NCBI RefSeq assembly: GCF_000013345.1
Contig: NC_007777.1
Coordinates: 3,968,001 to 4,032,000, forward strand
Length of the DNA stretch: 64,000 nt
Direction: 5' to 3'
Source of the DNA: Frankia casuarinae
GTDB taxonomy: Bacteria; Actinomycetota; Actinomycetes; Frankiales; Frankiaceae
The position numbers and the translations under genes are program-made. Under the pieces are notes generated by a model. That model had not been told where the DNA came from. It saw only the letters and a program-made list of their open reading frames with translations, and did no database searches. Below, piece after piece: positions 4,715 through 47,817 of the stretch. Position 1 is the stretch's first letter, and each line of letters starts with the position of its first letter.

Positions 4715-4745
4715 CCCGTGGTGGCGGCATCTGCCGCGATCGCGG

Positions 4746-4850
4746 CGGCGGGCCGTCGGGGGTCCATTTCCCACCGAGGACGATGCGCAGAAGGCGCTGA
4801 TGGCCTCGTTAGCGGAGCTTCACGGCGGCGACTGGCTGGAAGAGGCCTGA
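4746..4850 (+). pseudogene. Relic of a phage-type integrase N-terminal segment
   Basis: The reading frame ending at 4848-4850 gives VGGPFPTEDDAQKAL followed by MASLAELHGGDWLEEA. It parallels residues 48-77 of the intact integrase encoded at 5504-7042 (TGGPFETETEAEVAL, then TGSLAELHGG). No start codon or remainder exists: the upstream sequence is CRISPR repeat and a tRNA fragment follows directly. It looks like debris from an earlier related integrative element at this site. Confidence 0.6.
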
Positions 4851-4878
4851 CTCGAACCCACGACCGACGGATTATGAG
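4851..4878 (-). other. tRNA-Met 3'-end fragment (att-type direct repeat)
   Basis: Read on the minus strand, this is CTCATAA followed by the 3' anticodon stem, variable region and T arm of a tRNA (GTGGGTTCGAG). CAT is the methionine anticodon. The 5' half of the tRNA is missing and the acceptor strand does not follow, so this is not a functional tRNA. The same 28 bases occur at 7403-7430 and 47790-47817, and 24 of them at 50342-50365. This pattern is expected of att sites of tRNA-targeting integrases. Confidence 0.75.
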
Positions 4879-5503
4879 ATCATCGGCAGCCTGTTCGCCG
4901 GTCTCCATGGACGTCCGCCGGTCCTGATCACAGGTACACCCGGTCGCCCCGCCGCTTCTTGATGATCGACGCCACAATATGGACAATACATCCTTTGAAG
5001 CCATAATCGCACCGATCTGGTCGCGCAACGGTGCAGGTCGACCGGCGTACACCAGATCGTCGATCATAGCCAAAGAGGCATAAGTTATTCGCCAGCTAGG
5101 AAACTCAGGCTAGTCCAGAACATCCGCCGCGGCTACGACGAACTCGACGTCGAGGCCGATTCTCACCCGATACTGTCGCCCGTTCTCACCGAGCTCGCCC
5201 GCGCCATCTGACCGCCCGGCCGGCCAGAGCCTCGCACGCCCTACCCCTCACAACGCAACAGCCTTGTGTCGAGGCCATGCCAGGGTGACGCGCTCGATGT
5301 CAATGTGGATGCCTGCGCCTGCGACGATGTCTCTGCCGAGGGCCGCGACGATGCCGTCTGCGATGGCACCAGCCCGGACCGTCGGTGCGCATGAATCGTA
5401 TGCCCCGCCCCGTCCCACCAGCCGCGTCCGATGAACTTGGGCGCAGCTGCCCGTCATCCTCGGCCGCGGTAGCCCCCGGGACAGGCTGCCCGGATGGTGT
5501 CCA
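4879..5503. other. Intergenic region with gene debris
   Basis: Between the tRNA fragment and the integrase there is no complete gene. It contains a locally AT-rich patch (about 4955-5100) and the short relic at 5110-5211. Minus-strand frames near 5250-5550 lack a recognisable family. Identical sequence is present in the second copy (47818-48442). Confidence 0.5.
5110..5211 (+). pseudogene. C-terminal gene relic, probably transposase
   Basis: A frame without a start gives LVQNIRRGYDELDVEADSHP and ends SPVLTELARAI before TGA at 5209-5211. The NIRRGYDEL...ELARAI pattern recalls C-termini of actinomycete DDE transposases, but only 33 residues remain, so the family is uncertain. The copy lies at 48049-48150. 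Confidence 0.35.
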
Positions 5504-7042
5504 GTGAGGGGATCGGTGTTCAAACGGTGCGGCTGCCGCGATCCCCAGACAGGCAAGGATTACGGCGCCCGGTGTCCGAAACTGCCCCGGTCGGACCACG
5601 GTTCCTGGTTGTACATACACGACGTCCCACCCGGTCCCAATGGGCGGCGGCGGCGCACCACCGGCGGACCGTTCGAGACCGAGACGGAGGCCGAGGTCGC
5701 GTTGACCGGTTCCCTGGCCGAACTCCATGGCGGTGGGCGGCCCGACGACACCGGGCTCACCGTCGCCCGCTACCTCGACGACTGGCTCGATGGAAAGGCG
5801 AGTCTCGCCGCGTCCACCCGCCGCTCGTATGAGGAGCACGTCCGCCTCTATCTCAAACCCGGCCTGGGACACCTCAGACTCGCTGACCTGCGCGACCACC
5901 ACATCGAACAGCTCTACGCCGCCATGCGGCTCATCGGCCGGGATCTGCACGGCAGGAAACGCTCACCCCTGCTCGTCCGCCTCCTCGAAGTCCGCAAAGA
6001 CGACCCCAACCACCGCCGGCCCCTCAGCGCCTCCCGGCTACGCCGGGTGCACGCCACCACCATGAGCGCGCTCAACAGCGCCGTGAAACGTAAGAAACTT
6101 GGCGTCAATCCGGCCGAACACGTCGAACTACCCAAGGCCCGCAAGCCCCGACCGCTCGTCTGGACCGCACCGCGGATCGCCGCCTGGGAACGCACCGGTA
6201 AACGGCCCTCCCCCGTCATGGTCTGGACCCCGCAGCAGGCCGGTGCCTTCCTCGACTTCACCGTCGCCGACCGCCTTTACCCACTGTGGCATCTCATCGC
6301 CCACCGCGCCCTACGTCGCGGTGAAGCCGTCGCCCTCGGCTGGACCGAAATCGACATCGACGACGACAGTATCTACATCCTCGACAACCTCCCCGGATCC
6401 GTTTCCGGCGCCGACGACAACCTCGACCTGGACGGCGACGAATACACCGAACCCAAAAGCGACGCCGGCTACCGTACTGTCAGCCTGGACCCGGCTACAA
6501 AAAACGTCCTCACCACCTGGCAGGCGCGCCAAGACGAGGAACGCGCCGCTTACGGTAAGGCCTGGGTCGACAGCGGACGGATGTTCACTCATCCCGATGG
6601 CAGCAGGCTCACCCCCAACGGCGTCTCGCAACGCTTCGAACGGCTCATCACCCGATTCGCCACCATCCGCCATGAGCACGCCGAACACAGCTGGACCGTC
6701 GACCAGCTCGCCGCCCGGCATTTCATGCCCGAAGACGCCATTCAGACCGCGCTCGCCTTCGGCCCCCTGCCCCCGATCCGACTGCACGACCTGAGGCACA
6801 CCGCCGCCAGCCTCACCTACCGGGCCACCAAGGACCTCAAGGTCGTCTCCGAACTCCTCGGACACTCCTCCGTCCACTTCACCGGCGACGTCTACACCTC
6901 GGTCTTCGCCGACGCGGATCGCGCCGCGGCCAAAGCCGCCGCCGACATCGTCCCCCGCCGACACCCACCCGGCCAGGTGGAACCCGACAGCTTGGACGAC
7001 CCCACACCACCCCCCGCCAACGGACCTGGCCTCGACCTGTAG
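5504..7042 (+). CDS. Tyrosine site-specific recombinase (integrase), copy 1
   Basis: A 512-residue phage-type integrase starting at GTG. The N terminus has a Cys-rich patch (CGCRDPQTGKDYGARC) seen in some actinomycete integrases. A SAM-like core-binding domain lies at about residues 85-200. The catalytic domain has RALRRGEAVALGW (Arg I), HDLRHTAAS (His/Arg), LLGHSS and DVYTSVF (nucleophile Tyr). All catalytic residues are present, so it should be active. Flanking tRNA-Met 3' fragments suggest tRNA-Met as its target. The translation is identical to the copy at 48443-49981. Confidence 0.93.
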   Translation: MRGSVFKRCGCRDPQTGKDYGARCPKLPRSDHGSWLYIHDVPPGPNGRRRRTTGGPFETETEAEVALTGSLAELHGGGRPDDTGLTVARYLDDWLDGKASLAASTRRSYEEHVRLYLKPGLGHLRLADLRDHHIEQLYAAMRLIGRDLHGRKRSPLLVRLLEVRKDDPNHRRPLSASRLRRVHATTMSALNSAVKRKKLGVNPAEHVELPKARKPRPLVWTAPRIAAWERTGKRPSPVMVWTPQQAGAFLDFTVADRLYPLWHLIAHRALRRGEAVALGWTEIDIDDDSIYILDNLPGSVSGADDNLDLDGDEYTEPKSDAGYRTVSLDPATKNVLTTWQARQDEERAAYGKAWVDSGRMFTHPDGSRLTPNGVSQRFERLITRFATIRHEHAEHSWTVDQLAARHFMPEDAIQTALAFGPLPPIRLHDLRHTAASLTYRATKDLKVVSELLGHSSVHFTGDVYTSVFADADRAAAKAAADIVPRRHPPGQVEPDSLDDPTPPPANGPGLDL

Positions 7043-7758
7043 GACACCCCGGGTCAGGTTCGCAGCAAACTCCGGTCGCACCGACCGCATCGGCTCTTGA
7101 TCCACCAGCAGCGCGGGAGGCCACACCAACCGCGCACGGTCAAGATCGGTCAAACAGCCGGTAGACCAGGCCATCCCCACGACCGCGGCGGGGCCGCCGA
7201 GGGCCACCAAGAGCTCGTCCGCATCGACCGGCACCGAGGCACCCTCACCAGCCACGGCCACTCTCCGCAACCAGCGGAGGAGGCTCGGAAAATGGTTGCG
7301 GTCGCAACGTCACCAGCACGTCACCACCAGGGCCCGTTGTTGATCTCCACGGCCACCTGGCCGCTGCAAAAGGCCAGGTCAGGAGGGGTGGGGCGGGTGG
7401 GGCTCGAACCCACGACCGACGGATTATGAGGACTATCCGGCTATGCGGTGTGCTGAGCTGCATCGACGCACGTCACGCGCGACCGTGAACGTCGAATACT
7501 CCTCTGTACAGAGATCCGTCTGGTTGCAATCCTGTCGAGGAGATCACACCACCCAGCGGTGGTCACAGACCGGCGCGGCCGTGGCCGGTCCGGGGCACGG
7601 CCCTGCCGCGGAGGGGCGCCCCGACGGCGGCTGCGGCTTCGACGCGGTCGCGTTGCCTTGCGATGCGCATCCACGCGAGCCCAGGATCTACGCTGGGATC
7701 GGATGGTCGCGTCCCACCGACGTCTTGGACGCGTGACGACTCATCCGCCCGGGAGGCG
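7043..7758. other. Intergenic region, end of duplicated block and island junction
   Basis: 7043-7426 belongs to the duplicated block. It includes 7374-7430, where the minus strand carries the tRNA T arm plus a CCGCCCC acceptor strand. 7427-7758 is unique. I see no convincing gene: open frames on both strands have no recognisable domains. Read leftward from 7470, the D arm and 5' acceptor of a tRNA are absent. Confidence 0.5.
7403..7430 (-). other. tRNA-Met 3'-end fragment with acceptor strand (att site)
   Basis: The same 28-base sequence as at 4851-4878. Here it is followed on the minus strand by the rest of a T stem and an acceptor 3' strand CCGCCCC plus A, so the full 3' third of a tRNA is present. 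The sequence upstream of the anticodon loop does not pair to make an anticodon stem, so the tRNA is not intact. It probably marks one end of an integrated element. Confidence 0.7.
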
Positions 7759-12136: not shown

Positions 12137-13288
12137 TCAGCATTCGGCGAAGAAGGCGAGCATGTCGGCGGCGAGCCGGTCGGGAACCTCCACCGCGGGG
12201 AAGTGCCCGCCCTCGTCGTGCACCGTGGAGCGCACCACGCGGCACAGCCGTCCGACGAACTCGGGCGGGGGCGGGCGAAGGTCATCCAGGCCGTTCCCGA
12301 AACGCCCGAACGCGGTGGGGGCGAGGACCCGGTCACCGACCGTCATGCCCTCCTGGACCTGGCGGTTGTCGTGGAAGTCGCGCAGCGTGCTCCCGACGCA
12401 ACCGGTGGCCCAGTAGAGCGTGAGCGTGGTCAGCAGGAACTCCCGGGACACTCGGGGCACCCGGCCTTCGGCGCAGTCCGACCAGGCACGCCACTTCTCC
12501 AGCAGCCATGCGGCCAGCCCGGCGGGCGAGTCGGTCAGCCCGTACGCGAGGGTCTGGGGCCGGGTGGACGCGATCGCGTGATAGCCGCCTTCGGTCAGCG
12601 ACCACCGTTCGCCGGCGTCCAGATACGCACGCTCGGCCGGGGACAGCGGTGTCGGGTCGACGGCCGGGTCCAGGACGGGGTCGAGTTCGAGATCGGTCAG
12701 GTACAGCCCGGCCACCGTGTCGGGATGGTCGAGTGCCAGGAAGGTGCTGACCCCGGAACCGAAGTCGCTGCCCGCGGCCAGGTACCGGGGATAGCCGAGC
12801 CCGGTCATCAGGTCGTGCCAGACACGCGCGGTGTCCCGCAGCGTGTGTTCCCCGGCCGGACGCTCGGAGAAGGGATACCCGGGCAGGGACACGGCGACGA
12901 CATCCCGCGCGGGAGCGTCGATGCCGTACGCCGCGGGGTCGCGCAGGCGGTCGACGAGCGGGAGCATCTCCACGAAGCTGCTCGGCCAGCCGTGGGTCAG
13001 GATGACCGGCGGACCGTCGGCCCCCGGCACCCGATGATGGACGTAGTGCACCCGCAGCCCGGACACCTCGGCGACGAACTGGTCGTACCCGCCGTTGATT
13101 CTCTCCTCGGCCGCACGCCAGTCGAAGGTGGCCCAGTCGGCGAGCATTCCCTGGAGGAACGCCAGGTCGGTGCCCTGGGACCAGGCCGGGCCGGGGGCCG
13201 GTTGCGGCCAGCGCACCCGCGCGATCCGCTGCCGCAGTCCGGTCAGGACGTCCTCGGGCACCCGGATCCGGGACGGTGTGATCAGCAC
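12137..13288 (-). CDS. Epoxide hydrolase (alpha/beta fold, EHN domain)
   Basis: A 383-residue protein with the N-terminal EHN domain ([18 protein letters not shown]) and an alpha/beta-hydrolase core: HGWPSSF (oxyanion region), AGSDFGSG (nucleophile Asp) and [13 protein letters not shown] (catalytic His). It resembles microsomal-type epoxide hydrolases. The GTG start at 13288 overlaps the end of the radical SAM gene, so the two are co-translated. In the cluster it could open an epoxide or act as another hydrolase; the substrate is unknown. Confidence 0.85.
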
Positions 13289-14307
13289 GCGGTCCGTCCG
13301 GCCCGGGCGAGCACCCGTTCCAGGGCCGCCACCCGGGCCGGGTCGCTCAGGGCCCGCAGGCAGAAATCGCAGATGTTGGTGAACCGCGCGTCGGCGAGGT
13401 CCTGGAACTGCGGATCCTCGGCGACCATGGTCCGGAAGTAGGCTGGGGACTGCGGGTCGTGGAAGGCGTGCACGAGCCGTTCCCGCCGGGCCTGCTCCGC
13501 CGGGTCCGATCCCGGGCCGCGCACGGGCCCCAGGAACACCGGCGTCCGCTTCATGTCGTCGACGCCGATGTCGAGCTGGCAGCATGCATAGGCGTCACCG
13601 GTGGCGTGCACGGTGGTGGTCAGATCGTCGCAGTCGGGCAGCTCGGTGACCGGACGTCCCCGCCAGATCCGGTGCATCTCCCGGGCGCGGCCCCGATCGA
13701 GCAGCTCGAGCACCACGAACGGCTCGCCGGCCGCGATCAGGGCCGCCCTGATCTGCTCGTCGGCCTGTTCGTCGGCCGAGGTGCAGAACTGGATCTCGGT
13801 GGCCAGGCCGCTGGCCCGGGCCGCCCGGGCGGCGTTGATCGGTCGCTCCACGGGGAAGTACCGCATGTGGTGGACGTCCGCGCTGAGGGACAGGCCGTGG
13901 ATGCCGGCCTCGACGAAGGGCCGCAGTCTGGCCTCGGCCTGGGCGGGGTTGCGGGCCCAGAAGGCGTTGGACTCCACGTCGACGACATAGCCGAGCCGGA
14001 CGCCGTGGGCGATGGCCTGGCACATGACCTGTGGGTAGAGGAAGACCTCGCCCCCGCTGAAGGTGACGTGTCGCTTCCCGGTGCGCTGCCCCTGCTCGAG
14101 TACGGACCGGACCTCGTCGAGGGTCAGCCGCTCCCGGCGGGTCGGATTCGACTCCACAATGCAGTGATCGCACGCAAGATTGCAGGTCAGAGTGTAGTTG
14201 ATGACCATTCTCTGGGTCGGGGGGAAACGGTCCCAGATCGCGATGCCGCCGGCCACATCGGCCCCCACGTCATTCTTGGCCCCCGTGTCATTGGCGCTCC
14301 GTGTCAT
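13282..14307 (-). CDS. Radical SAM protein A
   Basis: A 341-residue radical SAM enzyme. CNLACDHC at residues 42-49 binds the 4Fe-4S cluster, [10 protein letters not shown] is the GGE motif that holds AdoMet, and a Cys cluster near the C terminus (NICDFC) may bind a further cluster. It shares NAFWAR...A...FVPVER with the radical SAM protein at 37576-38863, so the two are paralogues. The start at 14307 follows GTGGGGGGGC; upstream ATGs at 14436 and 14562 are possible. The reaction is unknown. Confidence 0.8.
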
Positions 14308-14681
14308 TGCCCCCCCACGTCGGTCCACCCGAAGCACGTCCTTCTCCTTTGGCACGGTAGCCAGCGGGGAGCGAAACGTCCACCATTTTTTCTCCTGCAA
14401 CCATCTCGGGTCGGGACTGATGCGCTCGGGCATCATGGTGGCACCGGCCCGAACGTCGGCTGAAAGAGCCTGGTGGGCGGGCGGGATCGGTAGGGTCCCG
14501 GTGTCGCGTAGAAGACGGCGCCCTTGACGTTCGATTCGAGGCGTAGGTACCGTCGGGACCAAGTTGGCTGGGGCGGACCGGTTGGCGGTAAACGCTCCAC
14601 GGACCTTCTGGCTGTCGGCCGTCCGTGGAGGCGCGCTCCGCGCTCTTGAACCTCGATCTGGCAGATTGTCATGGAGGAATT
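14308..14681. promoter_or_regulatory. Divergent promoter region
   Basis: About 370 bp between the minus-strand radical SAM gene and the plus-strand flavoprotein-like gene. It must carry promoters for both arms unless the radical SAM protein starts further upstream. A TTGACG occurs at 14524, but no well-spaced -10 is evident. ATGGAGGAATT directly precedes the plus-strand start. Confidence 0.4.
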
Positions 14682-16688
14682 ATGGGCGTGGACGTTCGTC
14701 GTGTCCTGAACTCTTTTGTTCCCCGGCGGCAGGCCTGGGCCCGGCTGGACGAGACCGTCCAGGACACGGGCCTGGCCGATGACACCACCGGAGTCCTCAA
14801 TCCCGACTTCCTGGCCCTCGGCCTGGGCGCCACCAACATGATGGGAATGCTCTGGTCGCTGGCCCTGGGCCGGCGGGTGGTGGGCGTCGAGCTGCGGGGT
14901 GACCCCTCGCTGGGCGTGCACTGGAACATTCGCGAGGACCTTTACCACCACCTCGGCCTGATCGACCAGATGATGCTCGAGCGCTACGGCGAGGCGGGTA
15001 TCCCCCGCCGGGGCGACGGGAGCCTGTTCATCCTGGCCGAGTGCTTCTACCGGCCGGACACGCCCGCCGGCGCCGTCACGGCCGACGAGGTGGTCAGCGG
15101 ATTCCTGGACGCGCTGGTCGGCGAGCCCGCGCGGATCGGCGGCCGGATCTTCCACACCGAGTTCATCGACGACCGTTGGAAGGACGGGAAGCCGCACCGC
15201 ACGGTGACCGTGCTGACGCCGCCGGAGCCCCCGCGCCGGCCCGACCCCACCCGGGTGGGGCGCAGCACCCTCGAGGCGCTGGAGGGGCCCTCCACGTTCC
15301 AGAGCGCGGCCTCCGAGGTGATGGTGCTGATGCGCCGCTACCTCGAAGGGGTCGAGCGGATGGACCTGGCCCGGGGCGTCACGCCGCGGGTGCGGTTGTT
15401 CCTGTCCCACCGGGTGGTCACCACCGGGACCGGGAGCGACGCGGGCTATCTGAAGTGGCTGCGCCGCGAGGAGGGATTCGGGGACGCCTCCGGCGGTCGC
15501 AAGTCCATCCGCATCGAGCAGGTAAGGGAGCTGGACTACAACGGCAGGTTCCACCGCGTGCGGGTGCCGGGCAGCAAGGTGATCGACATCGGGATTCCCG
15601 AGCTGTTCATGATCGCGCAGGGTTTCAACAGCACCGACGCCGACCGCCTAGGCTTCAGGCAGGAGGACGTGCTGGTGGACCACCACGACGGCCGCGGGCC
15701 GGTCGTGGCGCAGGCCGACTACCTCGCCGGCCTGCTGGAGGTGCTGGTCGACGGCCGGCTGCGGCGCAGGATCGCCTCCGACTTCGACAAGGAGGGCAAC
15801 GAGTACTGGGTGCGGCAGATCGCGGTGGGGCATGAGGACGACGCCGAGGTCGGCTGGATCCTGGTGCAGGTTCCCGACTACAAGACGTTCGACCCGATCC
15901 TGTCCGGCCTGGTGCCGCCCGGTACCTACCGCAAGTCCAAGCAGTACCGGGCCGGCGTGCAGCACCTGATGCGGGAGTTCTACCTGGACCAGGTCTCGCA
16001 GATCTGCGAGATGCCGGTGTCGGAACTGGAGAGGATCCAGATGCCGTACGGTCCGAAGCTGTTCAGCCTGGTCGAGCGGGCCGGGGTGGACGCCCAGGTC
16101 GCGGCCAACGGGGTCGTCGCCGGGGACACCTTCGGCAACGGCCATTTCCTCACCAGCGGCGGCGCCATCACGGGCATGATCGGTCACGGGCACCGCGTCA
16201 AGCTGTACTGGGAGGCCCGGGACGCCGGAGTGCCCCACGAGCAGGCCATACGCGGCCTGGCCGACGGCATCAAGCAGGACACCGACGACTGGTTCGCGGT
16301 GAGCGCGCAGGAGTTCAGCACCGCCCTGCCGATCAACTTCGGCTCCGAACGGATCGCCACGATCGAGGCGGCCGGCGGACACCGGTCGTCCGCCCGGGCG
16401 ACCACGATCGACGCCACCCGCCGTCACCGGCACACCCTGGTGCCGCTCGACCCGTCGGACTGGCGCCGGTTGCTGGTGCGCAGCGGGCGGATGCACGCCC
16501 TGGCCCTGCCCCCGATCCCGATGACCCACCCGGTCGTGCGCGGCGGTGGTGGGCTGCCTGATCCTGCCGACGCCCAGCAGGACGGTGCTACGGCCGGGAT
16601 GGGGGCCGGGATGGGCGGTTGCATGGTCCAGCCGGGCGGTGCCATGGGCGGGATGGACGGTGCGATGGCCGAGGTGGCAGCTCAGTGA
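14682..16688 (+). CDS. Rossmann-fold (probable FAD-dependent) oxidoreductase-like protein
   Basis: A 668-residue protein I cannot assign to a named enzyme. Residues about 43-72 (LALGLGATNMMGMLWSLALG, then RRVVGVELRG) have the glycine-rich turn and terminal acidic residue of a dinucleotide-binding beta-alpha-beta unit. Near residue 480, GDTFGNGHFLTSGGAITGM resembles the C-terminal GD motif of flavoproteins. The tail is Gly/Met-rich (GMGAGMGGCM). The ATG at 14682 has GGAGG four bases upstream. It ends overlapping the next gene (GTGA), whose C-terminal half is a clear paralogue. It may oxidise or halogenate an intermediate; that is a guess. Confidence 0.55.
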   Translation: MGVDVRRVLNSFVPRRQAWARLDETVQDTGLADDTTGVLNPDFLALGLGATNMMGMLWSLALGRRVVGVELRGDPSLGVHWNIREDLYHHLGLIDQMMLERYGEAGIPRRGDGSLFILAECFYRPDTPAGAVTADEVVSGFLDALVGEPARIGGRIFHTEFIDDRWKDGKPHRTVTVLTPPEPPRRPDPTRVGRSTLEALEGPSTFQSAASEVMVLMRRYLEGVERMDLARGVTPRVRLFLSHRVVTTGTGSDAGYLKWLRREEGFGDASGGRKSIRIEQVRELDYNGRFHRVRVPGSKVIDIGIPELFMIAQGFNSTDADRLGFRQEDVLVDHHDGRGPVVAQADYLAGLLEVLVDGRLRRRIASDFDKEGNEYWVRQIAVGHEDDAEVGWILVQVPDYKTFDPILSGLVPPGTYRKSKQYRAGVQHLMREFYLDQVSQICEMPVSELERIQMPYGPKLFSLVERAGVDAQVAANGVVAGDTFGNGHFLTSGGAITGMIGHGHRVKLYWEARDAGVPHEQAIRGLADGIKQDTDDWFAVSAQEFSTALPINFGSERIATIEAAGGHRSSARATTIDATRRHRHTLVPLDPSDWRRLLVRSGRMHALALPPIPMTHPVVRGGGGLPDPADAQQDGATAGMGAGMGGCMVQPGGAMGGMDGAMAEVAAQ

Positions 16689-19600
16689 GCATCTTCCAGC
16701 CGAAGGGCGACTCGTTCGGGAGCCTGAACGAGACCGTCCAGTCGCGGCGCCTGATCGTGAGCCGCTACCGCAGCCTGCGTGAACGGCAGTGGGCCCTGCT
16801 GGTGCTCTGCACCGGCGCCCTCGCCATCGTGATCGACACCTCCATCGTGAACGTGGCCCTGCCCTCCATCGGCCAGGACCTGGGGTTCTCCGCCGCCGGG
16901 CTCTCGTGGGTGGTGAACGCCTATCTGATCCCGTTCGGCGGACTGCTCCTGTTCGCCGGACGGCTGGGCGACCTGGTCGGCGCCAAGCGGATGTTCCTCG
17001 CCGGAATCGCGCTGTTCACGCCGGCCTCCCTCGTCTGCGGCCTGGCCCAGAACCCGGAGACGCTGGTCGCCGCCCGTTTCGTTCAGGGGGTGGGGGGTGC
17101 GCTGGCGGCGGCTGTCGTGCTCGGTCTGGTCGTCTCCACCTTCCCCAACGCGATCGAGCAGGCCAAGGCGATCGGCCTGTACGCGTTCGTCTCCTCCGCC
17201 GGTGCCGCCCTGGGGCTGCTGCTCGGGGCCTGGATCACCGAGGCGCTGAGCTGGCACTGGACCTTCTTCATCAACGTTCCGTTGGGCCTGCTGGTCCTGC
17301 CGCTCGGCGCGCGGCTGGTGGACGACGAACGAGTGGTGCTCGACGACCGCAGCATCGACGTCCCGGGCGTCCTGCTGATCACGAGCGGACTGATGCTCAC
17401 GGTCTACACGATCGTGCGCTTCGCCGACGGCGCGACACCGCTGACCTGGGCGCTGGTGGGGATCAGCGCAGCCCTGCTGGCGGCCTTCGTCGTGCGGCAG
17501 CGGACGGCCCGCAATCCGCTCGTCCCGTTGTCGATCTTCCGGGCGCGGAACGTCGCCTGGGCCAACATGGTGCAGGCGCTGATGATCGCCGGCATGGGCG
17601 GCATGTTCTTCCTCGGGACCCTATACCTGCGCCAGGTGCTGGGGCTCAGCGCCATGGAGGTCGGGCTGGCCTTCCTGCCCACCGCCCTCATGGTGGCCGT
17701 GATCTCCCTCAAGGCGACGCCGCGACTGATGGAGAAGATCGACCCCAAGACCGTGCTGGTGCCCGGCCTCCTGCTCATCACCGCGGGCCTCGCCCTGCTG
17801 GCCGTTGCTCCGGCGGACGGTGACTACTGGCGCGACGTCCTGCCCGCCATGGTGCTTCTGGGCGCCGGCGCCGGCCTCGGGTACCCGTCCTCCCTGACCA
17901 TGGTGATGGCCGATGCCACCGCCGCCGACCGGGGACTGCGCTCCGGGCTTGTCAACACCACCCAGCAGGTCGGACCGGCGATCGGCCTGGCCGTCCTGGC
18001 GACCGTGGCCGCCGACCGCACCACGACGCTCGTCTCGCGGGGGAGCACGCACGCCGAGGCCCTGACCGGCGGATATCACCTGGCCTTCTGGATCGGGAGC
18101 GGGGCCAGCCTGGTCGCGCTGGTGCTGACGGTGCTGTTCCTCAGGCCGGCGGTGCCGACGAGCGTACCGAAGACCCTCGACCGGGCCCGGGCCTCGCAGC
18201 GTCTGACCCAGGACCACACCGGCCTGTCCGACCCGGATTTCCTGGCTCTGGGCCTGGGCGGAACCAACATGATGGCCATGCTCTGGTCGGTGGCCATGGG
18301 CAGGCGTGCAGTGGGAGTGGAACTGCGCGGCTCGCCCTACGTGTCGGTGATGCGCTGGACGATGCGCGAGGAGATCTACCACCACCTCGCGATGATCGAT
18401 TCGATGATGCTGGAGCGGTACGGCGAGGATCTGCTGCCGCGCCTCGGCGACGGCCGGCCGTTCAGACTGGCCGACTGCTTCTTCTCCCGGCACACCAGGG
18501 CAGGATCCGTGCGGGGCGACGAGGTGGTGACCGGCTTCGAGTCGGACGCGCACATCGGCGGTCTCGCCCGGCACTACGAGACCATCGACGACCGCTACCG
18601 GGAGGGCCGGGCGCATCGTGAGATCAACGTCCTCGACCCCCTGGAGGGCCCGGAGGGGCTCGACCCCGCGGCGTTGGAGCACGACCTCTCGGACGTGCTG
18701 GGCAGCCAGTCGATGTTCCAGGTCGGGGCCGAGGAACTGCTCGTCATGCTCCGCCGGTACCTGGAGGGGCTGGAACAGATCGACCGGGACCGGGGCGAAG
18801 CCCTGCCGCGGGTGCGCGTCCTGCCCTACCACCGGGTCGCCACGTCGGAGTCCTCCGACCGCGAGCGCCGGTGGCTGCCCTCGGCGCTGCGCCGGACCCC
18901 GGTCGCGGAACGGGGCTTCGAGCGCACGGCGGACGGCCGGGTGCGGGTCCGGGTCGAGGCCGTGCGCGAGCTGGACTACCGGGGTGCCTTCCGCCGTGTG
19001 CGGGTGCCGTACAGCGAGACGGTCGACCTCGGCACCCCCGGGCTGATCATGATTGCCGAGGGGCTGGACAGCCCGGACGCGGCCCGGCTGGGATTCCGTC
19101 AGGAGACGGTGTGCGTGGACCGGGGCGACGGGCGGGGCCCTGTGCCGGCCGAGGCCGACTTCCTGGTCGGCAACGTCGACATCTACCTCGCCGACCGGAT
19201 CCGTGTCCGTCGCGCGTCGGAGTTCGACCAGGCGGGCAACGAGTACTGGGTCCACCAGCGGTGCGTGGGGCACGAGGAGGACGCGCAGATCGGCTGGACG
19301 ATGCTGGAGGTCCCGCCGTACAAGACGTTCGACCCGATCCAGGCCGGCCTGGTCCCGGCCGGGACGCCGAAGGACTCCAAGCCCTACTTCGCCGGGCATC
19401 AGTTCCTGCTCCGGCGCTACTTCCTGGACCAGACGGCACAGCTGACGGAGATCCCACGCCGGGCCATCGAGTACAACCAGCTCTCCTACGGCCCCAAGCT
19501 CTTCACCGTGACGGAGCGGATCGGGCTCGACGCCCTGGTGGCCGCGAACGCGGTCGTGGCCGGTGACTCCTTCGGCAACTCCCACCACCTGACCAGCGGC

Positions 19601-20023
19601 GGCATCAACACCGGCATGCTCGGTCACGGCCTGCGGGTGCTGCGTTACTGGCAGGCCAGGGAGTCCGGTAGCAGCGCCAGCGACGCGGCGCGTGACCTGG
19701 CCGACGGGATCAGGGCGGACACCCGGGCGCTGATCGACCTGTGCGAGCAGGACTTCCGAGCGGCGCCGCCCGCGGCGCCCCCGAGGAAGCAGCAGCGACT
19801 GCTGGCGGGAGCCACCCGTCAGCGGCGTTCGATCTTCCCGCAGCGCTACCCGGACGAGTGGAGCCGCATCCAGCTCCGCACCGGCAAGATCTTCGCCTAC
19901 AACCTGCCCATGCTCGATCCCGAGCACCCCGACACCCGCGAGGCCCAGCCGGTCGGCGCCATGTCGGGTGCCCCGCCGTCCGCCAGCGAGCGGAAGGACC
20001 CGCTCGGCGCGGCTCGGGCATGA
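16685..20023 (+). CDS. MFS exporter embedded in a Rossmann oxidoreductase-like protein (fusion)
   Basis: A 1,112-residue fusion. Residues about 34-500 are a complete DHA2-type MFS transporter: DTSIVNVALPSIG, GRLGDLVGAKRMF and ARFVQGVGGALAAA are its hallmark segments, with about 14 hydrophobic helices. Residues about 505-1090 are a full paralogue of the preceding protein (LALGLGGTNMM, VGVELRGSP, GDSFGNSHHLTSGGINTGM). The first 19 residues, including LNETVQ, match the upstream protein's LDETVQ, so the transporter seems inserted near the N terminus of an ancestral copy. The GTG start overlaps the previous stop. It likely exports the cluster product; the fused domain may act on it at the membrane. 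Confidence 0.85.
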   Translation: MSIFQPKGDSFGSLNETVQSRRLIVSRYRSLRERQWALLVLCTGALAIVIDTSIVNVALPSIGQDLGFSAAGLSWVVNAYLIPFGGLLLFAGRLGDLVGAKRMFLAGIALFTPASLVCGLAQNPETLVAARFVQGVGGALAAAVVLGLVVSTFPNAIEQAKAIGLYAFVSSAGAALGLLLGAWITEALSWHWTFFINVPLGLLVLPLGARLVDDERVVLDDRSIDVPGVLLITSGLMLTVYTIVRFADGATPLTWALVGISAALLAAFVVRQRTARNPLVPLSIFRARNVAWANMVQALMIAGMGGMFFLGTLYLRQVLGLSAMEVGLAFLPTALMVAVISLKATPRLMEKIDPKTVLVPGLLLITAGLALLAVAPADGDYWRDVLPAMVLLGAGAGLGYPSSLTMVMADATAADRGLRSGLVNTTQQVGPAIGLAVLATVAADRTTTLVSRGSTHAEALTGGYHLAFWIGSGASLVALVLTVLFLRPAVPTSVPKTLDRARASQRLTQDHTGLSDPDFLALGLGGTNMMAMLWSVAMGRRAVGVELRGSPYVSVMRWTMREEIYHHLAMIDSMMLERYGEDLLPRLGDGRPFRLADCFFSRHTRAGSVRGDEVVTGFESDAHIGGLARHYETIDDRYREGRAHREINVLDPLEGPEGLDPAALEHDLSDVLGSQSMFQVGAEELLVMLRRYLEGLEQIDRDRGEALPRVRVLPYHRVATSESSDRERRWLPSALRRTPVAERGFERTADGRVRVRVEAVRELDYRGAFRRVRVPYSETVDLGTPGLIMIAEGLDSPDAARLGFRQETVCVDRGDGRGPVPAEADFLVGNVDIYLADRIRVRRASEFDQAGNEYWVHQRCVGHEEDAQIGWTMLEVPPYKTFDPIQAGLVPAGTPKDSKPYFAGHQFLLRRYFLDQTAQLTEIPRRAIEYNQLSYGPKLFTVTERIGLDALVAANAVVAGDSFGNSHHLTSGGINTGMLGHGLRVLRYWQARESGSSASDAARDLADGIRADTRALIDLCEQDFRAAPPAAPPRKQQRLLAGATRQRRSIFPQRYPDEWSRIQLRTGKIFAYNLPMLDPEHPDTREAQPVGAMSGAPPSASERKDPLGAARA

Positions 20024-21669
20024 GGCGAGGCATGGTCCCACCGGGCTACGGACCGGCTCCCACCCCGCAGGAGCTGGCGGACGAGTACGACATCTGCGTG
20101 GTGGGCAGCGGGGCGGCGGGTTCGGTCGTCGCCTGGCTGCTCGCCCGGGCCGGGCTGTCGGTGGCCGTGGTGGAGCAGGGTGGGTTCGTCACGGACGAGG
20201 ACAGCTACGACGACGTGCTGGCCGCGGGGGAGTCCGCCTGGGTGCGGCAGGAGAACGGCACCTGGGCCAAGGTGGGCTCACCCTGGACGACCTGCAACGT
20301 GGGTGGCGGCACGCTGTTCTTCGGGGGGGTCCTGTTCCGCCACCGCCCGCTCGACTTCGACCCGGAGACCGTTCTGGGCCGGGCCGACCTGCCGCTGCGC
20401 TGGCCGCTTGAGCCGGCGGAGCTGACGGACTACTACGACGCCGTCGAGGATCTGATCGGCGTCGCGGGTGTCGCGGACGGCGACCCCAGCCTGCCGGTCC
20501 GGTCCAGGCCGTATCCGCTGCCCCCGGTGGCCACCACGGCGGAGGGGCGGCGGCTGACGGAGGCCGCGAGGTCCATGGGCTGGGCACCGTTTCCCACCCC
20601 CCTGGGCGTCAACAGCATCGAGTACCGCGGTCGCCCGGTGTGCGCCGCGGATGCCCCCTGCATCTCACGGCGCTGCCCGATCCACGCCAAGGGGGACGCG
20701 CTGGACCGCTTCCTGCGGCCGGCGATGGCCGCGGGCGCACGCCTGTTCACCGGGCTGAAGGCGGAGGCCCTGCTCGGGGACGCGCGTCGCGACGCCACCG
20801 CGTTGCGGTGCGTCCGGATGCCGGACGGCGAGCGCGTCGTCCTGCGGGCCCGGCACTTCGTGCTGTGCGCGAACGCCGTGCAGACTGCCGCGCTGCTGCT
20901 GCGTTCGACCACCGTGCGGCATCCGGCCGGGCTGGGCAACTCACACGACATGGTCGGCCGGGGGCTCTGCTTCAAGATCGGTGAATATCTGGTCGGGTAC
21001 TGCCACGAGCCGACCTCGGCGCCCGCCCGCAGCCGGCTGATGGGCCTGGGACCCATCTCCACCTGCTGCGTGACCGACCTCTACCAGGACCCGGCGGCGC
21101 CGGGCGGGCTGGGTGGCCTGCTCTACGAGAACCGGCCCGAGCGGACCTACCGGTTACGGGACACCGAACACCTGCTGCGGATCGAGGCGCTGGTACCGGA
21201 CGAACCCCAACCGGGCAACCGGGTCCGGCTGGGGCCGGGGACCGACGCCCACGGCGTGCCCGACGTCCTGATGGACTACCAGGCCCATCCGCGCGACCTC
21301 GCCCGCTCCGAGTACATGCTCGGGCAGGGCGAGGCGCTGCTGCGGGCCGCCGGCTGCGACGTCATCGTGCGGGAGGCGTCCGGGTGGGCGCTCGGCAGCG
21401 GGCACCTGCACGGCACCTGCCGCATGGGTGAGGACCCGGCCACCAGCGTGACCGGGCCCGACGGCCGCCTGCACGACGCGGACAACGTCTTCGTAGCCGA
21501 CGGCGGCCTGTTGCCGTTCCCCGGCGGGGTCAATCCGACGCTGACCATCCAGGCGCTCGCGCTACGGGTGGCCCATCGGCTCCTCGCGGAGCGCTACGCC
21601 ACCGGTCGCGTCCCGATCGGGGAACTGGTCGGGCCGAGCGTGACCGCGGCGAACCGGTCGCCGAGGTAG
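20020..21669 (+). CDS. GMC-type FAD oxidoreductase, paromamine 6'-oxidase-like
   Basis: A 549-residue GMC-family flavoprotein. VVGSGAAGSVVAWLLARAG at residues 27-45 is the FAD-binding turn, VGGGTLFFGGVLFR the second GMC motif, and the C terminus has HGTCRMGED and NVFVADGGLLP with the FPGGVNPT ending. NeoG/BtrQ-type enzymes of this shape oxidise the 6'-hydroxyl of paromamine before transamination, and this cluster has the matching class III aminotransferase. Its start overlaps the fusion gene stop (ATGA). Its 3' end overlaps the convergent gene by 76 bp. Confidence 0.8.
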   Translation: MRRGMVPPGYGPAPTPQELADEYDICVVGSGAAGSVVAWLLARAGLSVAVVEQGGFVTDEDSYDDVLAAGESAWVRQENGTWAKVGSPWTTCNVGGGTLFFGGVLFRHRPLDFDPETVLGRADLPLRWPLEPAELTDYYDAVEDLIGVAGVADGDPSLPVRSRPYPLPPVATTAEGRRLTEAARSMGWAPFPTPLGVNSIEYRGRPVCAADAPCISRRCPIHAKGDALDRFLRPAMAAGARLFTGLKAEALLGDARRDATALRCVRMPDGERVVLRARHFVLCANAVQTAALLLRSTTVRHPAGLGNSHDMVGRGLCFKIGEYLVGYCHEPTSAPARSRLMGLGPISTCCVTDLYQDPAAPGGLGGLLYENRPERTYRLRDTEHLLRIEALVPDEPQPGNRVRLGPGTDAHGVPDVLMDYQAHPRDLARSEYMLGQGEALLRAAGCDVIVREASGWALGSGHLHGTCRMGEDPATSVTGPDGRLHDADNVFVADGGLLPFPGGVNPTLTIQALALRVAHRLLAERYATGRVPIGELVGPSVTAANRSPR

Positions 21670-22511
21670 TCCGCCACCTGCTCCAGACGGGCGACCTGGT
21701 ACGGATGCCGCCGGGCGCCGACCACCACCGTGCGGGGGGAACAGCCGAGTCGGTCCGGGAGATCCCGGTACACCCGGTGCACCAGATGTCCCGACCGTCC
21801 CTCCGCCTCGGTCAGCGGAAACCGCAGCACGCCGACGGCGTCCAGCCCGCCGTCCTGCACCGACCAGGCCAGTACCCCGGCGAGCAGGACGTCGATCCAG
21901 TAGCGCTGGAAGGTCCGCCGTAACAGCGGCACGTGCGATCCCCACCGGGCCGCCAGTACCGTGGTGTCGCCGTGCACCACCTCCTCGCCGACCCGCACGT
22001 GGGTCCGCCCGCCGTGGGCCTGGAAGAGATAGGCGTAACGGGCGGCCAGGTCACTTTGCAGGCCGGCCAGGTAGAGGGTATCCCCGTGCCGGACGCCGTA
22101 GCAGTAGCCGAGGAAGCCGTCCCGGCCGGCGTCCATGAAGTTCCAGTCGGCGGCCTCCAGCATCCCCCGGGGCAGCAGCCCCGGGGGGTCGAGGAAGCAG
22201 CGCAGCGTCACCGGGCTGCCGAAGCGGGGAAAGCGCCCGCCCACGATGTCGTCGCACACCCCCGCCATGCCGACGACGGCGTAGCCGGTGCGCCGGTAGC
22301 CGAAGCGGACCGGCTCCTGCAGCGGGGCGGTGTCGTTGAACGAGTACAGCAGTCGTCCGAGCGGGACAGCCAGGCGGGCAGCGATCTCCTCGCGGTCCGT
22401 CGGATCGTCCAGCCACCGCGCCAGCAGCGCCTGCCGTGCGCCCAGCCACGGGTTGCGCGCGACGAACCGGCCGAGGAAGTCCTCGTCCGGGGGATGGATG
22501 AACGCGCTCAT
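21594..22511 (-). CDS. Conserved-looking protein of unknown function, last gene of the main operon
   Basis: A 305-residue protein not recognised. It is soluble-looking, with an N-terminal helical segment (DEDFLGRFVARNPWLGARQ) and a central DWNFMDAGRDGFLGYCYGV. No catalytic motif is evident. The ATG at 22511 overlaps the glycosyltransferase stop (ATGA), so it belongs to the operon running from 34206. Its C terminus overlaps the end of the GMC gene on the other strand. Confidence 0.6.
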   Translation of the reverse strand: MSAFIHPPDEDFLGRFVARNPWLGARQALLARWLDDPTDREEIAARLAVPLGRLLYSFNDTAPLQEPVRFGYRRTGYAVVGMAGVCDDIVGGRFPRFGSPVTLRCFLDPPGLLPRGMLEAADWNFMDAGRDGFLGYCYGVRHGDTLYLAGLQSDLAARYAYLFQAHGGRTHVRVGEEVVHGDTTVLAARWGSHVPLLRRTFQRYWIDVLLAGVLAWSVQDGGLDAVGVLRFPLTEAEGRSGHLVHRVYRDLPDRLGCSPRTVVVGARRHPYQVARLEQVADYLGDRFAAVTLGPTSSPIGTRPVA

Positions 22512-23809: not shown

Positions 23810-25081
23810 TCAGAGGTCCGGGTGGCGGTCGCGCACCTTGGCCAGAGCGGCCACGATGTCGTCCGCGTCGGTCGAGTCCCCGAGCAGCGCCGAGTGATGG
23901 AACAGGAGGGTGGTCTCGCAGTAGCGGCGCGCGCCGCCGAAGTCACGGGAGAACGCCCGGTCGCGGGCGGCCTCGGTCCAGGCGGCCGCGAAGCGGCGCT
24001 TGGTGTGCGGGCGCAGCATCACGCTGCGGTGCAGGGGAGCGTCCGGTGGATACCAGGTCATGCCCAGCTCGGCCGTCAGGGCCTGGGCCACCCGGTCCAG
24101 CGGCACCGCGCCGAAGGTTCCCGCGGGGAAACGGACCCCGTACTCGTAGATCGAACGCAGTTGTACCTGCTCGGGCACGGGGATGGGGCCGAACCCCCCG
24201 AGCCGGGCCAGCCCCTGCTCGAGGTCGGCGGCGGTCTTCGCCCGGTGCCGGTGCTGGTCCTGCAACCGGGGAAGCTGGTCGAGCAGGAGGGCGGCCGTCA
24301 GCTCCGACATGCAGTAGTTCGCCCCCATCACCTCGCCGTCCTCGACCAGTTCGAGGGTGCCGGCCACCGGGGGGCCGGGGTGATAGCGGCGCGAGTCGGC
24401 CCGCAGCTGCTGGGCGCGCCGGTACAGCCGCTCGTCGGCGGTGATGACGGCGCCGCCCTCGCCGCCGGCCAGGACCTTTCCGTTCTGGAAGCTGAACGCT
24501 CCGATCGCCCCGAAGGAGCCGACGGCCCGGTCCCCCCAGCGCGCACCGTGCGCCTGCGCACAGTCCTCGATCAGGTGGATGCCGGCGTCCTCGGTCAGGG
24601 CGGTGATGGCGGGCAGGTCGGCGACCGTCGCGGCCAGGTGGACGACGATCACCGCCTTCGTCCGGGGGCCCATGGCGTCCCGAATGCTCTGCGCGGTCAG
24701 GCAGCCGGTCTCGGGGTCGCTGTCGGCGAGCACGGGCAGCGCCCCCACCCGCAGCACGGCCGTCACCGGGGCGACCCAGGTCAGCGTGGGCACCACGACC
24801 TCGTCGCCGGGACCGATGTCCAACGCCTCCAGCGCCACCACGAGGGCGCTGGACCCGTGGTCGACACTCACCCCGTAGGGAACGTCGCTGTAGGCGGCGA
24901 AGGCCTCGGCGAACCGCCGCTCACAGGCGTGGGTGCCGTCGCTGGCCCAGCTCACCGCCCACCGGCGGGATCGCAGCGCGTCGAGCAGAGCCTGTTCGCT
25001 GGCCGCGTCGTACTGGGGCCACTTCGGCCAGGGACGGTCCCGCCGGACCGGCGTACCACCGAGAAGGGCCAGTTCACTCAT
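23810..25081 (-). CDS. DegT/StrS aminotransferase, scyllo-inosose type
   Basis: A 423-residue PLP enzyme of the StsC/BtrS group. GGTPVRRDRPWPKWPQYD is the N-terminal signature of L-glutamine:scyllo-inosose/DOI aminotransferases. EDCAQAHGA carries the PLP-binding Asp and SFQNGKVLAGGEGG the Schiff-base Lys. It should convert an inosose to an aminocyclitol, the defining early step of aminoglycoside synthesis. The ATG overlaps the dehydrogenase stop (ATGA). Confidence 0.88.
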   Translation of the reverse strand: MSELALLGGTPVRRDRPWPKWPQYDAASEQALLDALRSRRWAVSWASDGTHACERRFAEAFAAYSDVPYGVSVDHGSSALVVALEALDIGPGDEVVVPTLTWVAPVTAVLRVGALPVLADSDPETGCLTAQSIRDAMGPRTKAVIVVHLAATVADLPAITALTEDAGIHLIEDCAQAHGARWGDRAVGSFGAIGAFSFQNGKVLAGGEGGAVITADERLYRRAQQLRADSRRYHPGPPVAGTLELVEDGEVMGANYCMSELTAALLLDQLPRLQDQHRHRAKTAADLEQGLARLGGFGPIPVPEQVQLRSIYEYGVRFPAGTFGAVPLDRVAQALTAELGMTWYPPDAPLHRSVMLRPHTKRRFAAAWTEAARDRAFSRDFGGARRYCETTLLFHHSALLGDSTDADDIVAALAKVRDRHPDL

Positions 25082-26124
25082 GCCGTTACCCCCTGCTCCT
25101 GGCTGGTGGCGCCGGCCGTCCGGTCGCCGCCGACGTGGAAGAAGAGGCGCAACGGTGCCGGTCCGTCGCGCTCGAGCACACTGCGGTACGAGGTCAGCGG
25201 GACCGGGTCGCCGGTCAGGGGACCCAGGCGGACCTCGCCGGCAACGACCTTGGCCAGGGCGGTGCGCAGCTGCCCCTGACCGGACAGCACACCCTGCACG
25301 GTCAGTTCGCGCAGCATCACCGTGCTCGGTTCGACGGTGACCGCCTCGGCTCCCGAGTAGCCCACGAGCACGTAGACGCCGCCGACCGCGGTCGCCGTCA
25401 GGCCACGGGGGAACACGCCGGCCGCTCCGGTGGCGTCGAAGACAACCTCCGGCAGGTCCGGGTGCCAGCCCTCGATACCCGGGTCGGCGTCGACGCCGAG
25501 GTCGGCGGCGATCCGCCGGCGGGACTGCAGGGGATCGGCCACCCGTACCCGGGACGCCCCGGCGCCGCGGGCCAGCTGGGCGACGAGCAGGCCGATCGTT
25601 CCGGCGCCGATCACGCCGACCGACCGGCCGGACACCGCCCCGGCCCGTTCCACGGCGTGCAGGGCCACGCCGAGCGGCTCCAGCAGGCAGGCCTGGGGGC
25701 CCGGGACCTGTGGCGGCAGCGCGACCAGGTTGGCGGCGGGGATGGTGAACAGCTGGGCGAAGGCACCCGGGCGGGTGAAGCCCACCTCGTCGATGTCGGT
25801 GCACAGGTTCGGCCGTCCCGCGAGGCAGGCGGGGCACCGGCCGCAGAGCCGGAAGTTGTCGCCCACCACCGCCCGGCCCACCAGCTCGGGGCGGTCGGGG
25901 GCCGCCAGCACCGTGCCGGACCACTCGTGCCCGGGAATCACCGGGTACTCGGCGTCGTGCAGGGTCCCGTCCAGCAACCGCAGGTCGGTACCGCACATGG
26001 CGGCGAAGTCGGTCGCGACCAGGGCCTCGCCCGGACCGGGCTCGGGCCGGGGACGCCGCTCCAGGCCGTGGTCACGGTGCCCCCGGACCACCAGGGCCAG
26101 CATGTCGTCATCGGTCATGATCAT
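25078..26124 (-). CDS. Zinc-dependent alcohol dehydrogenase
   Basis: A 348-residue MDR enzyme. MCGTD and GHEWSG hold the catalytic zinc, CGRCPACLAGRPNLC the structural zinc, and GVIGAGTIGLLVAQLARGAG the NAD(P)-binding turn. Family members in aminoglycoside clusters (NeoA, KanE type) oxidise the aminocyclitol before a second transamination. The start at 26124 overlaps the methyltransferase stop; an ATG at 26118 is possible. Confidence 0.87.
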   Translation of the reverse strand: MIMTDDDMLALVVRGHRDHGLERRPRPEPGPGEALVATDFAAMCGTDLRLLDGTLHDAEYPVIPGHEWSGTVLAAPDRPELVGRAVVGDNFRLCGRCPACLAGRPNLCTDIDEVGFTRPGAFAQLFTIPAANLVALPPQVPGPQACLLEPLGVALHAVERAGAVSGRSVGVIGAGTIGLLVAQLARGAGASRVRVADPLQSRRRIAADLGVDADPGIEGWHPDLPEVVFDATGAAGVFPRGLTATAVGGVYVLVGYSGAEAVTVEPSTVMLRELTVQGVLSGQGQLRTALAKVVAGEVRLGPLTGDPVPLTSYRSVLERDGPAPLRLFFHVGGDRTAGATSQEQGVTA

Positions 26125-28008: not shown

Positions 28009-28751
28009 CGCTGGGCTCCGAATCTCGTGTCCGACAGGTCCGCTCGACCGAGCAGGTTGGCCAGGGCCTCGGTCGCCCATGGTTCGTCGGTGCGCAGCCG
28101 CTCACCGCCTTCCGCCGCGAGGTACCGGTGCAGGACGGGCAGGTGCTCGCCGGGCAGCTGGGAGGGGTAGTACAGCACCCCGCGCTCGATGGCCCGCCGG
28201 TACGGACCGGCCGCCACGAGGGTCCCGGCCCGCGTCGGCGCCGGGCCGGTCGCCGCGGCGTAGGGCAGGTCGGCGTACCAGACCACCGAGGGTTCCGGGA
28301 CGAGGCAGGGGGCCACCGCGTCCACCGCCCGGCGGACCACCTCGTGATCGACATGGCCGCCGACGGCCATCGGGGCCAGCAGGAACCGCGGCCGCACGGC
28401 GGCCGCCAGCGCGGCCAGCCCGTCGGCCACCCGGCGGACCAGCCCGGGGTCGGCGGCAGCACCCATCTCCGTGTCGTCCGTGTACCCGCGCAGGCTGGCG
28501 TCCGGTAGCCGCAACGACACCAGGGCGGCGCCGGCATGCCGGTCGGCCCACGCCGCGTCCTCGGCCGTACGCAGCGCGGTGACCGAGGCGGCGTCCCCGT
28601 GCGCCGCCGACCCCGGCGCATAGCGGCTGCGCCCGAAGACGGTCACCGCGTGCAGGTCGTGTCCCGCGCCGGCCAGCGTGGCGACGGTCGCACCGACGGA
28701 CCAGGCGAGGTCGTCCGGGTGCGGGGACACCAGCAGCACCGTCGACCCCAT
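28005..28751 (-). CDS. PIG-L family N-acetylglucosaminyl deacetylase
   Basis: A 248-residue zinc deacetylase: SPHPDDLAWS near residue 9 and GGHVDHE near residue 125 give the His/Asp/His zinc site. BtrD/NeoD-type members remove the acetyl group from N-acetylparomamine after GlcNAc transfer. It is coupled to the kinase gene upstream (TGATG) and the radical SAM gene downstream. Confidence 0.88.
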   Translation of the reverse strand: MGSTVLLVSPHPDDLAWSVGATVATLAGAGHDLHAVTVFGRSRYAPGSAAHGDAASVTALRTAEDAAWADRHAGAALVSLRLPDASLRGYTDDTEMGAAADPGLVRRVADGLAALAAAVRPRFLLAPMAVGGHVDHEVVRRAVDAVAPCLVPEPSVVWYADLPYAAATGPAPTRAGTLVAAGPYRRAIERGVLYYPSQLPGEHLPVLHRYLAAEGGERLRTDEPWATEALANLLGRADLSDTRFGAQR

Positions 28752-29557
28752 CAGATGAACTCGTCCAGGAGCCGGTAGTAGTGCTCGCGCACGGGATCGG
28801 GCTGTCGGCCGCAGCGGGCCAGCAACCGGGCCGCGTGGCCCGGACCGTAGCCCCAGCGGGTGCATTCCTCGCCGATGTTGCGCACCGCCACGGCCAGGTC
28901 CAGCCACACGTCGGCGACACCGCAGCGGCCGACGTCGAGCAGCGCGGTCGGGGCCAGGGTGTCCGGGTCGAGCAGCACGTTGTCCAGGCAGAGATCGCCG
29001 TGACAGACCACGAGCTGCTCCTGCTCCGGTGCCGGGGTGGCGTCGAGTTCCCGCTGCAGGTCCTGCGCACTCCAGCCGCGGTGGCGTGGTTCCAGGTCGG
29101 CCAGGTCGACGGTGCCCGTCCGCACGGCGTGCCGGGCGGCCGGGAGGGTGATCCGCAGGGTGCGGTCGAAGGGACACCGGGCGGCGGGCAGGCCGTGCAA
29201 GGCGAGGACGAGTTCGGCCACCGCGTCGATCACCCGGTCGAGCCGGTCCGCCGGCCAGGGTCCCGCCGCGGGGACCCCGGGCACCTCCCGGGTGACCAGC
29301 CACATGTGCGTCTCGTCGGCGCCGACGTCGACCACCTCGGGAACCGGAATCCCCTGCCGGGCCAGCCACGAGAGCCGCTCGGCCTCGGCCTCGGCCTGAA
29401 AGCGATGGTCCTCGCGCCCGCGTCGCGGCGCCGACTTCAGGTAGTGCCCGTCGAGCCGGTACACCCGGGTGCCGTAGGAGCGGGTCACGACGTGTGCCCA
29501 GGCCCGGTCCGGGCCGGGTCCCGGTGCCGCGACGGGTCGGGACGGAGCCTCAACCAC
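28751..29557 (-). CDS. Aminoglycoside 3'-phosphotransferase-like kinase
   Basis: A 268-residue APH. Residues about 25-60 form the nucleotide-binding lobe (RSYGTRVYRLDGHYLK). VCHGDLCLDNVLLDPDTL is the catalytic loop with its Asp and Asn, and LLDVGRCGVADVWLDLA has the metal-binding Asp. HGDLCLDN and DVGRCG closely follow the APH(3') pattern. It may protect the producer or phosphorylate an intermediate. The GTG at 29557 overlaps the aminotransferase stop and gives the family's usual length. Confidence 0.85.
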   Translation of the reverse strand: MVEAPSRPVAAPGPGPDRAWAHVVTRSYGTRVYRLDGHYLKSAPRRGREDHRFQAEAEAERLSWLARQGIPVPEVVDVGADETHMWLVTREVPGVPAAGPWPADRLDRVIDAVAELVLALHGLPAARCPFDRTLRITLPAARHAVRTGTVDLADLEPRHRGWSAQDLQRELDATPAPEQEQLVVCHGDLCLDNVLLDPDTLAPTALLDVGRCGVADVWLDLAVAVRNIGEECTRWGYGPGHAARLLARCGRQPDPVREHYYRLLDEFI

Positions 29558-47653: not shown

Positions 47654-47684
47654 CCCGTGGTGGCGGCATCTGCCGCGATCGCGG

Positions 47685-47789: not shown

Positions 47790-47817
47790 CTCGAACCCAC
47801 GACCGACGGATTATGAG
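47790..47817 (-). other. tRNA-Met 3'-end fragment, copy 2 of the first att-type site
   Basis: The 28 bases are identical to 4851-4878. On the minus strand they read from the CAT anticodon loop to the T loop; the acceptor strand and 5' half are missing. Confidence 0.75.

Follow-up and report, generated by a model that had tools for sequence, protein, structure and literature searches.

A major facilitator exporter fused to a paralogue of the neighbouring, predicted flavoprotein-fold protein in a Frankia casuarinae gene cluster

The stretch analysed here, referred to as the window, comprises 64,000 nucleotides of Frankia casuarinae contig NC_007777.1 (positions 3,968,001 to 4,032,000). It carries a gene, P0001, whose product is an end-to-end fusion of a major facilitator superfamily (MFS) efflux transporter with a paralogue of P0002, the protein encoded immediately upstream. 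The fusion is inherited with P0002 and lies in a gene cluster that appears to be of aminoglycoside type. The P0001 frame is open from a GTG at 16685 to 20023 and encodes 1,112 amino acid residues (aa); the GTG overlaps the TGA stop of P0002 by 4 bases. A preliminary description, made from the letters alone, had read the 1,112 codons as an MFS transporter followed by a full-length paralogue of the upstream protein, and had proposed aligning the two paralogues. That reading stands: the frame is open, its first half matches Pfam MFS_1, and from about residue 498 P0001 aligns along the full length of P0002 with about 50% identity. The two genes and the parts of the fusion are as follows.

14682–16688, + strand: P0002, the unfused paralogue, 668 aa, with a PHBH-type flavoprotein fold in the model (frame, model and fold search; PHBH is p-hydroxybenzoate hydroxylase)
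16685–20023, + strand: P0001, exporter–enzyme fusion, 1,112 aa (open frame, uninterrupted in 15 genomes)
16685–16792, + strand: N-terminal tail of P0001, predicted to be cytoplasmic, residues 1–36, including PKGDSFGSLNETVQ (12 of 15 fusions match the motif pattern)
16793–18142, + strand: MFS exporter half of P0001, residues 37–486 (low-confidence model with 14 helices, whose limits were placed manually)
18176–18229, + strand: junction of P0001, residues 498–515, counterpart of the LD-containing N tail of the unfused paralogue (sequence comparison)
18230–20020, + strand: enzyme half of P0001, residues 516–1112, a full-length P0002 paralogue (alignment)
18251–18268, + strand: GLGGTN, the GxGxx(N/G) nucleotide-binding loop, residues 523–528 of P0001
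19562–19576, + strand: GDSFG, the GD-type motif, residues 960–964 of P0001 (present in all 14 fused copies shown)

Fusions of this kind were read from the DNA of 15 genomes, this one and 14 more. All are uninterrupted, and each lies directly behind an unfused paralogue. When the fusion start is taken as the candidate start codon nearest the upstream stop, start and stop overlap in every case, the overlap being 4 bases in 12 fusions and 1 base in the other 3. The count is a lower bound, since the genomes searched were sampled evenly from larger families. The joining of an exporter to a paralogous enzyme is thus real and conserved, and because 15 genomes hold the uninterrupted frame, a sequencing or frame artefact is ruled out. 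In one genome, G522, a TGA was flagged within the match, yet the frame is continuous through both halves.

When genome contigs were scanned for P0002, 12 loci came up, 6 of them with an exporter–enzyme frame directly behind the P0002 homologue. In three whole-genome samples the family occurs in 10 of 297, 8 of 350 and 3 of 200 genomes; two unfused copies are found in 3, 0 and 0 of these carriers, respectively, and a single kind with no fused copy in 1, 2 and 1. The order that includes G400, a Dictyobacter, has the family in 9 of 47 genomes. In an even sample of 393 genomes from the window's class, the only carrier is the Frankia casuarinae genome itself, and none of 34 other genomes of its own taxonomic family has a match (E up to 0.001). 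Among viral contigs, 39 stretches matched a pattern and none proved to be a relative.

Phylogenetic comparison indicates how the arrangement was inherited. The clade trees and the shuffle test described below cover nine of the 15 fusions, those found first. The fused enzyme halves form one clade (support 99/99), as do the fused exporters (100/99). The enzyme tree was built without two degenerate third paralogues (L003, L014), and two alignments were made without two near-identical rows, the unfused copy of L054 and the second copy of L055. The motif and split comparison extends to 14 genomes, L103 being absent since the anchor pattern missed it. Here the exporter-half tree and the enzyme-half tree agree in 11 of 11 splits, and those of the unfused and fused enzymes in 10 of 11; label shuffles of these comparisons gave at most 2 in 200 trials. 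Because of the single clades and the shared splits, the fusion most likely arose once, the P0001–P0002 pair being inherited jointly thereafter.

In the related clusters of three genomes, G447 and the nearly identical G587 and G562, both enzyme copies are unfused and the exporter is a gene of its own, 46–47% identical and placed between radical SAM and aminotransferase genes. These exporters are weakly sister to the fused ones (83/79) and are candidate counterparts only. The second enzyme copies derive from a separate duplication in the tree (94/91), with their place unsure because of long branches. The preliminary description had named as refuting evidence close homologues in which transporter and enzyme are separate genes, with a stop missed in the frame described. 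This applies only in part: separate genes do occur in these three clusters, but no missed stop is present in the window.

The two halves appear to have been joined plainly end to end, a reading supported by the position of a short conserved segment. The N tails of the unfused paralogues contain LD 18 to 23 residues before DPDFLALG. In the fusions LD follows the last helix and precedes the enzyme, in all 14 printed sequences and, on visual reading, in L103; in P0001 its spacing is that of P0002. The longer form, LDxT, is complete in 12 of 14 unfused and 12 of 14 fused copies. It had been proposed instead that a tandem duplication came first and that the exporter was then inserted into one copy close to its N terminus, given SLNETVQ in P0001, RLDETVQ in P0002 and identity at 14 of 15 bases. 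The two genes do share the GACGAGACCGTCCAG stretch, and a shuffle test of the unfused N tail against the fusion N terminus gives p 0.001 in this genome. The likeness is not significant in the other eight pairs (p 0.063 to 0.949), and the LD segment stands behind the transporter, not ahead of it. Insertion is rejected on these two grounds, and we give it almost no credence. The ETVQ match is a matter of chance or of a small local exchange.

Two results nevertheless tell against an end-to-end joint. Here, and in no other genome tested, the N-terminal likeness has a higher score (26) than that at the junction (23, p 0.053). Among the nine junctions tested by shuffling, five have p below 0.05, and three (L004, L005, L056; p 0.17 to 0.80) are singly not significant.

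The fusions also have an N-terminal motif, P(K/R)GD..G..xETV, which was found by pattern in 12 of the 15 and as a variant in L103 by eye; L008 and L057 are without it, and none of 13 aligned unfused proteins showed it in the N tail. The GDSFG within this motif (16685–16792) resembles the GDSFG of the enzyme's own GD motif, a likeness that is probably due to chance.

The exporter half belongs to the MFS, residues 41–434 matching Pfam MFS_1 with 214.6 bits against a cut-off of 33.4. Its best NCBIfam matches are LmrA, TcmA and EmrB-type MFS drug exporters of antibiotic producers (221 to 164 bits among the best 25 of 50 models). Unlike those exporters, P0001 reaches the curated cut-off of none of these best 25 models and has a second, enzyme-like half. 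It scores 219.8 bits against the 230.2 bits of TIGR00711, the DHA2-type efflux permease model, and is therefore filed only as an MFS exporter of DHA2 style. The 14 helices of the preliminary description, a number also expected of DHA2-type permeases, find a counterpart in the low-confidence model of the whole protein, in which 14 long helices were counted between residues 31 and 485; a simple hydropathy scan gave 12 peaks above 1.5.

The loop between helices 2 and 3 has the motif A sequence GRLGD..GAKR, and in MFS proteins the motif A loop is on the cytoplasmic side. With helix limits set by hand from the hydropathy scan and the model, the loops have 23 Lys or Arg residues inside and 2 outside. 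Given the 14 helices of the weak model, the motif A loop and the charge distribution, both ends of P0001 and the enzyme domain should be in the cytoplasm. A transporter carrying its own finishing or inactivating enzyme had been put forward as what would be a new form of self-protection. Since the predicted topology puts the enzyme in the cytoplasm, finishing of the drug outside the cell is unlikely.

The enzyme had been labelled a Rossmann-fold protein, which is incomplete. A structure prediction, also proposed at the outset, was made for P0002 from 30 sequences, with a predicted local distance difference test score (pLDDT) of 80.2 and a predicted template modelling score of 0.84. The model has the fold of PHBH, a flavoprotein monooxygenase (best Z 23.9, 331 residues at 3.7 Å). 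The best 50 structure rows have Z from 23.9 to 21.8 with 320 to 364 residues aligned, Foldseek gave E down to 4.3e-13, and, judged by their titles, the best 50 rows of each structure list belong to flavoprotein monooxygenases and related proteins. Sequence identity to the matched structures is low, 8 to 15% in the rows shown. No Pfam flavin family was matched by any of 30 enzyme-family members (E up to 0.1), no Pfam or NCBIfam family covers the P0002-type enzyme, and among PDB sequences nothing matched P0002 (E up to 10) or the 30-row profile (E up to 1).

Group A flavoprotein monooxygenases are characterised by the PHBH fold, a GxGxxG loop, a GD motif, and bound flavin with oxygenation dependent on NAD(P)H. 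The P0002 family has the PHBH fold in common with them, as judged from the P0002 model (the fused copy was modelled poorly), and also the GD motif, which is GD(S/T)FGN in 14 of 14 unfused copies and GDSFG in 14 of 14 fused copies. It differs from them in its low identity, in the lack of a Pfam flavin match and in the third Gly of GxGxxG, which is N or S in all 14 unfused copies shown; the fused copies have G in 4 of 14 and N in 10. P0002 is predicted to be a divergent member of the PHBH fold.

Several observations concern the family more widely. The Chloroflexota homologues L010 and L013 have an extra C-terminal part that resembles an FHA domain by eye. A third, far diverged paralogue, about 30% identical, is present at L003:18055-19404, L014:17016-18596 (− strand) and L098:931-2232; it has no match in the Frankia casuarinae genome. 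The C tails of P0002 (16600–16688) and of copies in L003, L014, L098, L100, L101 and L102, unfused and fused, are rich in Met, Gly and Ala, and the Met-richest, in L014, has up to 11 Met in its last 45 residues.

Within the fusions, the enzyme domain is maintained but altered. Its ratio of nonsynonymous to synonymous substitution (dN/dS) lies between 0.16 and 0.59 in all 8 close pairs, from which we conclude that it is maintained; the ratio exceeds that of the unfused copy in 7 of the 8. Nine fused copies keep 71–81% of the 198 positions that are invariant in the unfused family. Two segments, PINFGxER and RAxxIDATRRHRH, are present in all 14 unfused partners and absent from all 14 fused copies. 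The unfused second copies of G447 and G587 also differ at most of these altered positions, although one keeps F553.

What would such a domain do at the exporter? We tentatively favour, at somewhat less than even confidence, a docked pair, in which the fused, altered copy would keep soluble P0002 at the exporter so that a late product could be handed over. Anchored in the membrane and facing the cytoplasm, the fused domain would be the partner through which P0002, the soluble product of the overlapping gene, docks. The late product would be oxidised and then passed to the transporter instead of accumulating as a free cytosolic pool. Flavin adenine dinucleotide (FAD) may still be bound by the fused copy, which probably no longer carries out the same reaction as P0002. 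The arrangement of the genes favours this proposal, every one of the 15 fusions lying directly behind its unfused paralogue with start on stop. The single clades and shared splits, the maintenance of the fused enzyme, its loss of two segments beside a retained GDSFG, the similar departures in the second copies of G447 and G587, and the charge distribution of the loops also speak for it. A more specific form, that soluble flavoenzyme and exporter-fused twin assemble at the inner membrane face so that the last oxidation and the export of an aminoglycoside-type drug become one event, with export governed by whether the complex carries flavin or product, is rather doubtful.

Three points count against the docked pair. 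The degenerate GxGxxG weakens the case for FAD binding by the fused domain. The model of the whole fusion has a pLDDT of 48.6 and is usable for the helix count only. Moreover, the fusion is not required, since G447, G587 and G562 keep exporter and second copy as separate genes.

The main rival to the docked pair, possible though on balance doubtful, gives the fused domain flavin-enzyme activity in its own right: it would catalyse a late step unlike that of P0002 and be tethered for direct transfer of its product. Purifying selection in all eight pairs, the GDSFG kept by all 14 fused copies and the extent to which family-invariant positions are kept are what such an enzyme would lead one to expect; loss of the two segments invariant in the unfused partners, and evolution faster than that of the P0002 homologue in seven of eight pairs, are not. 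That the joint is a fortuitous gene fusion, keeping expression equal while the halves do not cooperate, is improbable. Related clusters work with separate genes, and in seven of eight pairs the free twin is the slower to evolve, as this explanation would have it; however, 15 genomes retain the joint, the trees of its two halves match, and no split or broken version was among those read. A non-catalytic sensor that gates the exporter on binding product or flavin would suit a domain that is altered, maintained and on the cytoplasmic side, but full enzyme length is retained, beyond a sensor's needs, which makes this quite improbable.

The main genes around P0001 and P0002 are the following.

13282–14562, − strand: radical SAM protein, divergent neighbour (start not fixed)
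20023–21669, + strand: GMC-type oxidoreductase, next downstream of P0001 (start not fixed)
23810–25102, − strand: DegT/DnrJ/EryC1 aminotransferase (family match)
28751–29770, − strand: APH(3') aminoglycoside phosphotransferase (equivalog match, 216.9 bits against a cut-off of 205)
36090–37109, − strand: inositol-2-dehydrogenase-like protein (298.8 bits, below the cut-off of 355)

The APH(3') match identifies an aminoglycoside self-resistance gene, and its presence nearby suggests that the cluster is of aminoglycoside type. Of candidate cyclitol-forming enzymes, the inositol-2-dehydrogenase-like protein and a scyllo-inosose-dehydrogenase-like match (135.2 bits against a cut-off of 450) both score below their cut-offs. 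In all, the window also has four radical SAM proteins, one with a B12 domain, two aminotransferases, a Zn dehydrogenase, a GT4 glycosyltransferase, a DAO-type oxidase and two methyltransferase-like genes. A GMC-type homologue, about 74% identical, follows the fusion in L003 and L014. A conserved gene at 21594–22508, with no Pfam or NCBIfam match, stands beside exporter–enzyme genes in several clusters. Direct repeats at about 4600–7434 and at 47539–50373, 99.9% identical over the 2,366 bases compared, both contain a 512-aa frame. They bracket some 40 kb in which the cluster lies and resemble the ends of a mobile unit. Elsewhere, a P0002 relative is found on a Streptomyces plasmid, at a locus that, by its marker genes, is presumably an enediyne-type cluster.

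Fusion of an MFS transporter to a partner enzyme is already known from LplT-Aas. PMC11416262 describes these as adjacent genes in some bacteria and as one fused open reading frame in others, and reports that the E. coli LplT and Aas proteins interact. P0001 is alike in being an MFS transporter fused to an enzyme. The pairing of parts differs: LplT-Aas joins an acyltransferase and a 12-helix lipid flippase (PMC11416262), whereas P0001 joins an efflux-type exporter and a flavoprotein-fold domain. Unlike LplT-Aas, P0001 has a free paralogue beside it and lies in an antibiotic-type cluster. In the open-licence literature, judged by titles and abstract openings, no account of an exporter–flavoenzyme fusion in an antibiotic cluster came to light, which speaks only weakly for its absence. 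PMC3188489 ranks Frankia CcI3 genes by transcript level; these ranks could not be mapped to P0001.

The family described here has a flavoprotein fold and no Pfam entry, and it occurs in Actinomycetota, in Chloroflexota and in one genome placed in Myxococcota. Antibiotic producers must avoid poisoning themselves, and whether late biosynthesis is physically joined to export can seldom be tested. The fusion suggests that synthesis and export of a drug may be physically linked in this way, and its presence in 15 genomes, set against related clusters in which the parts are separate, provides a natural comparison.

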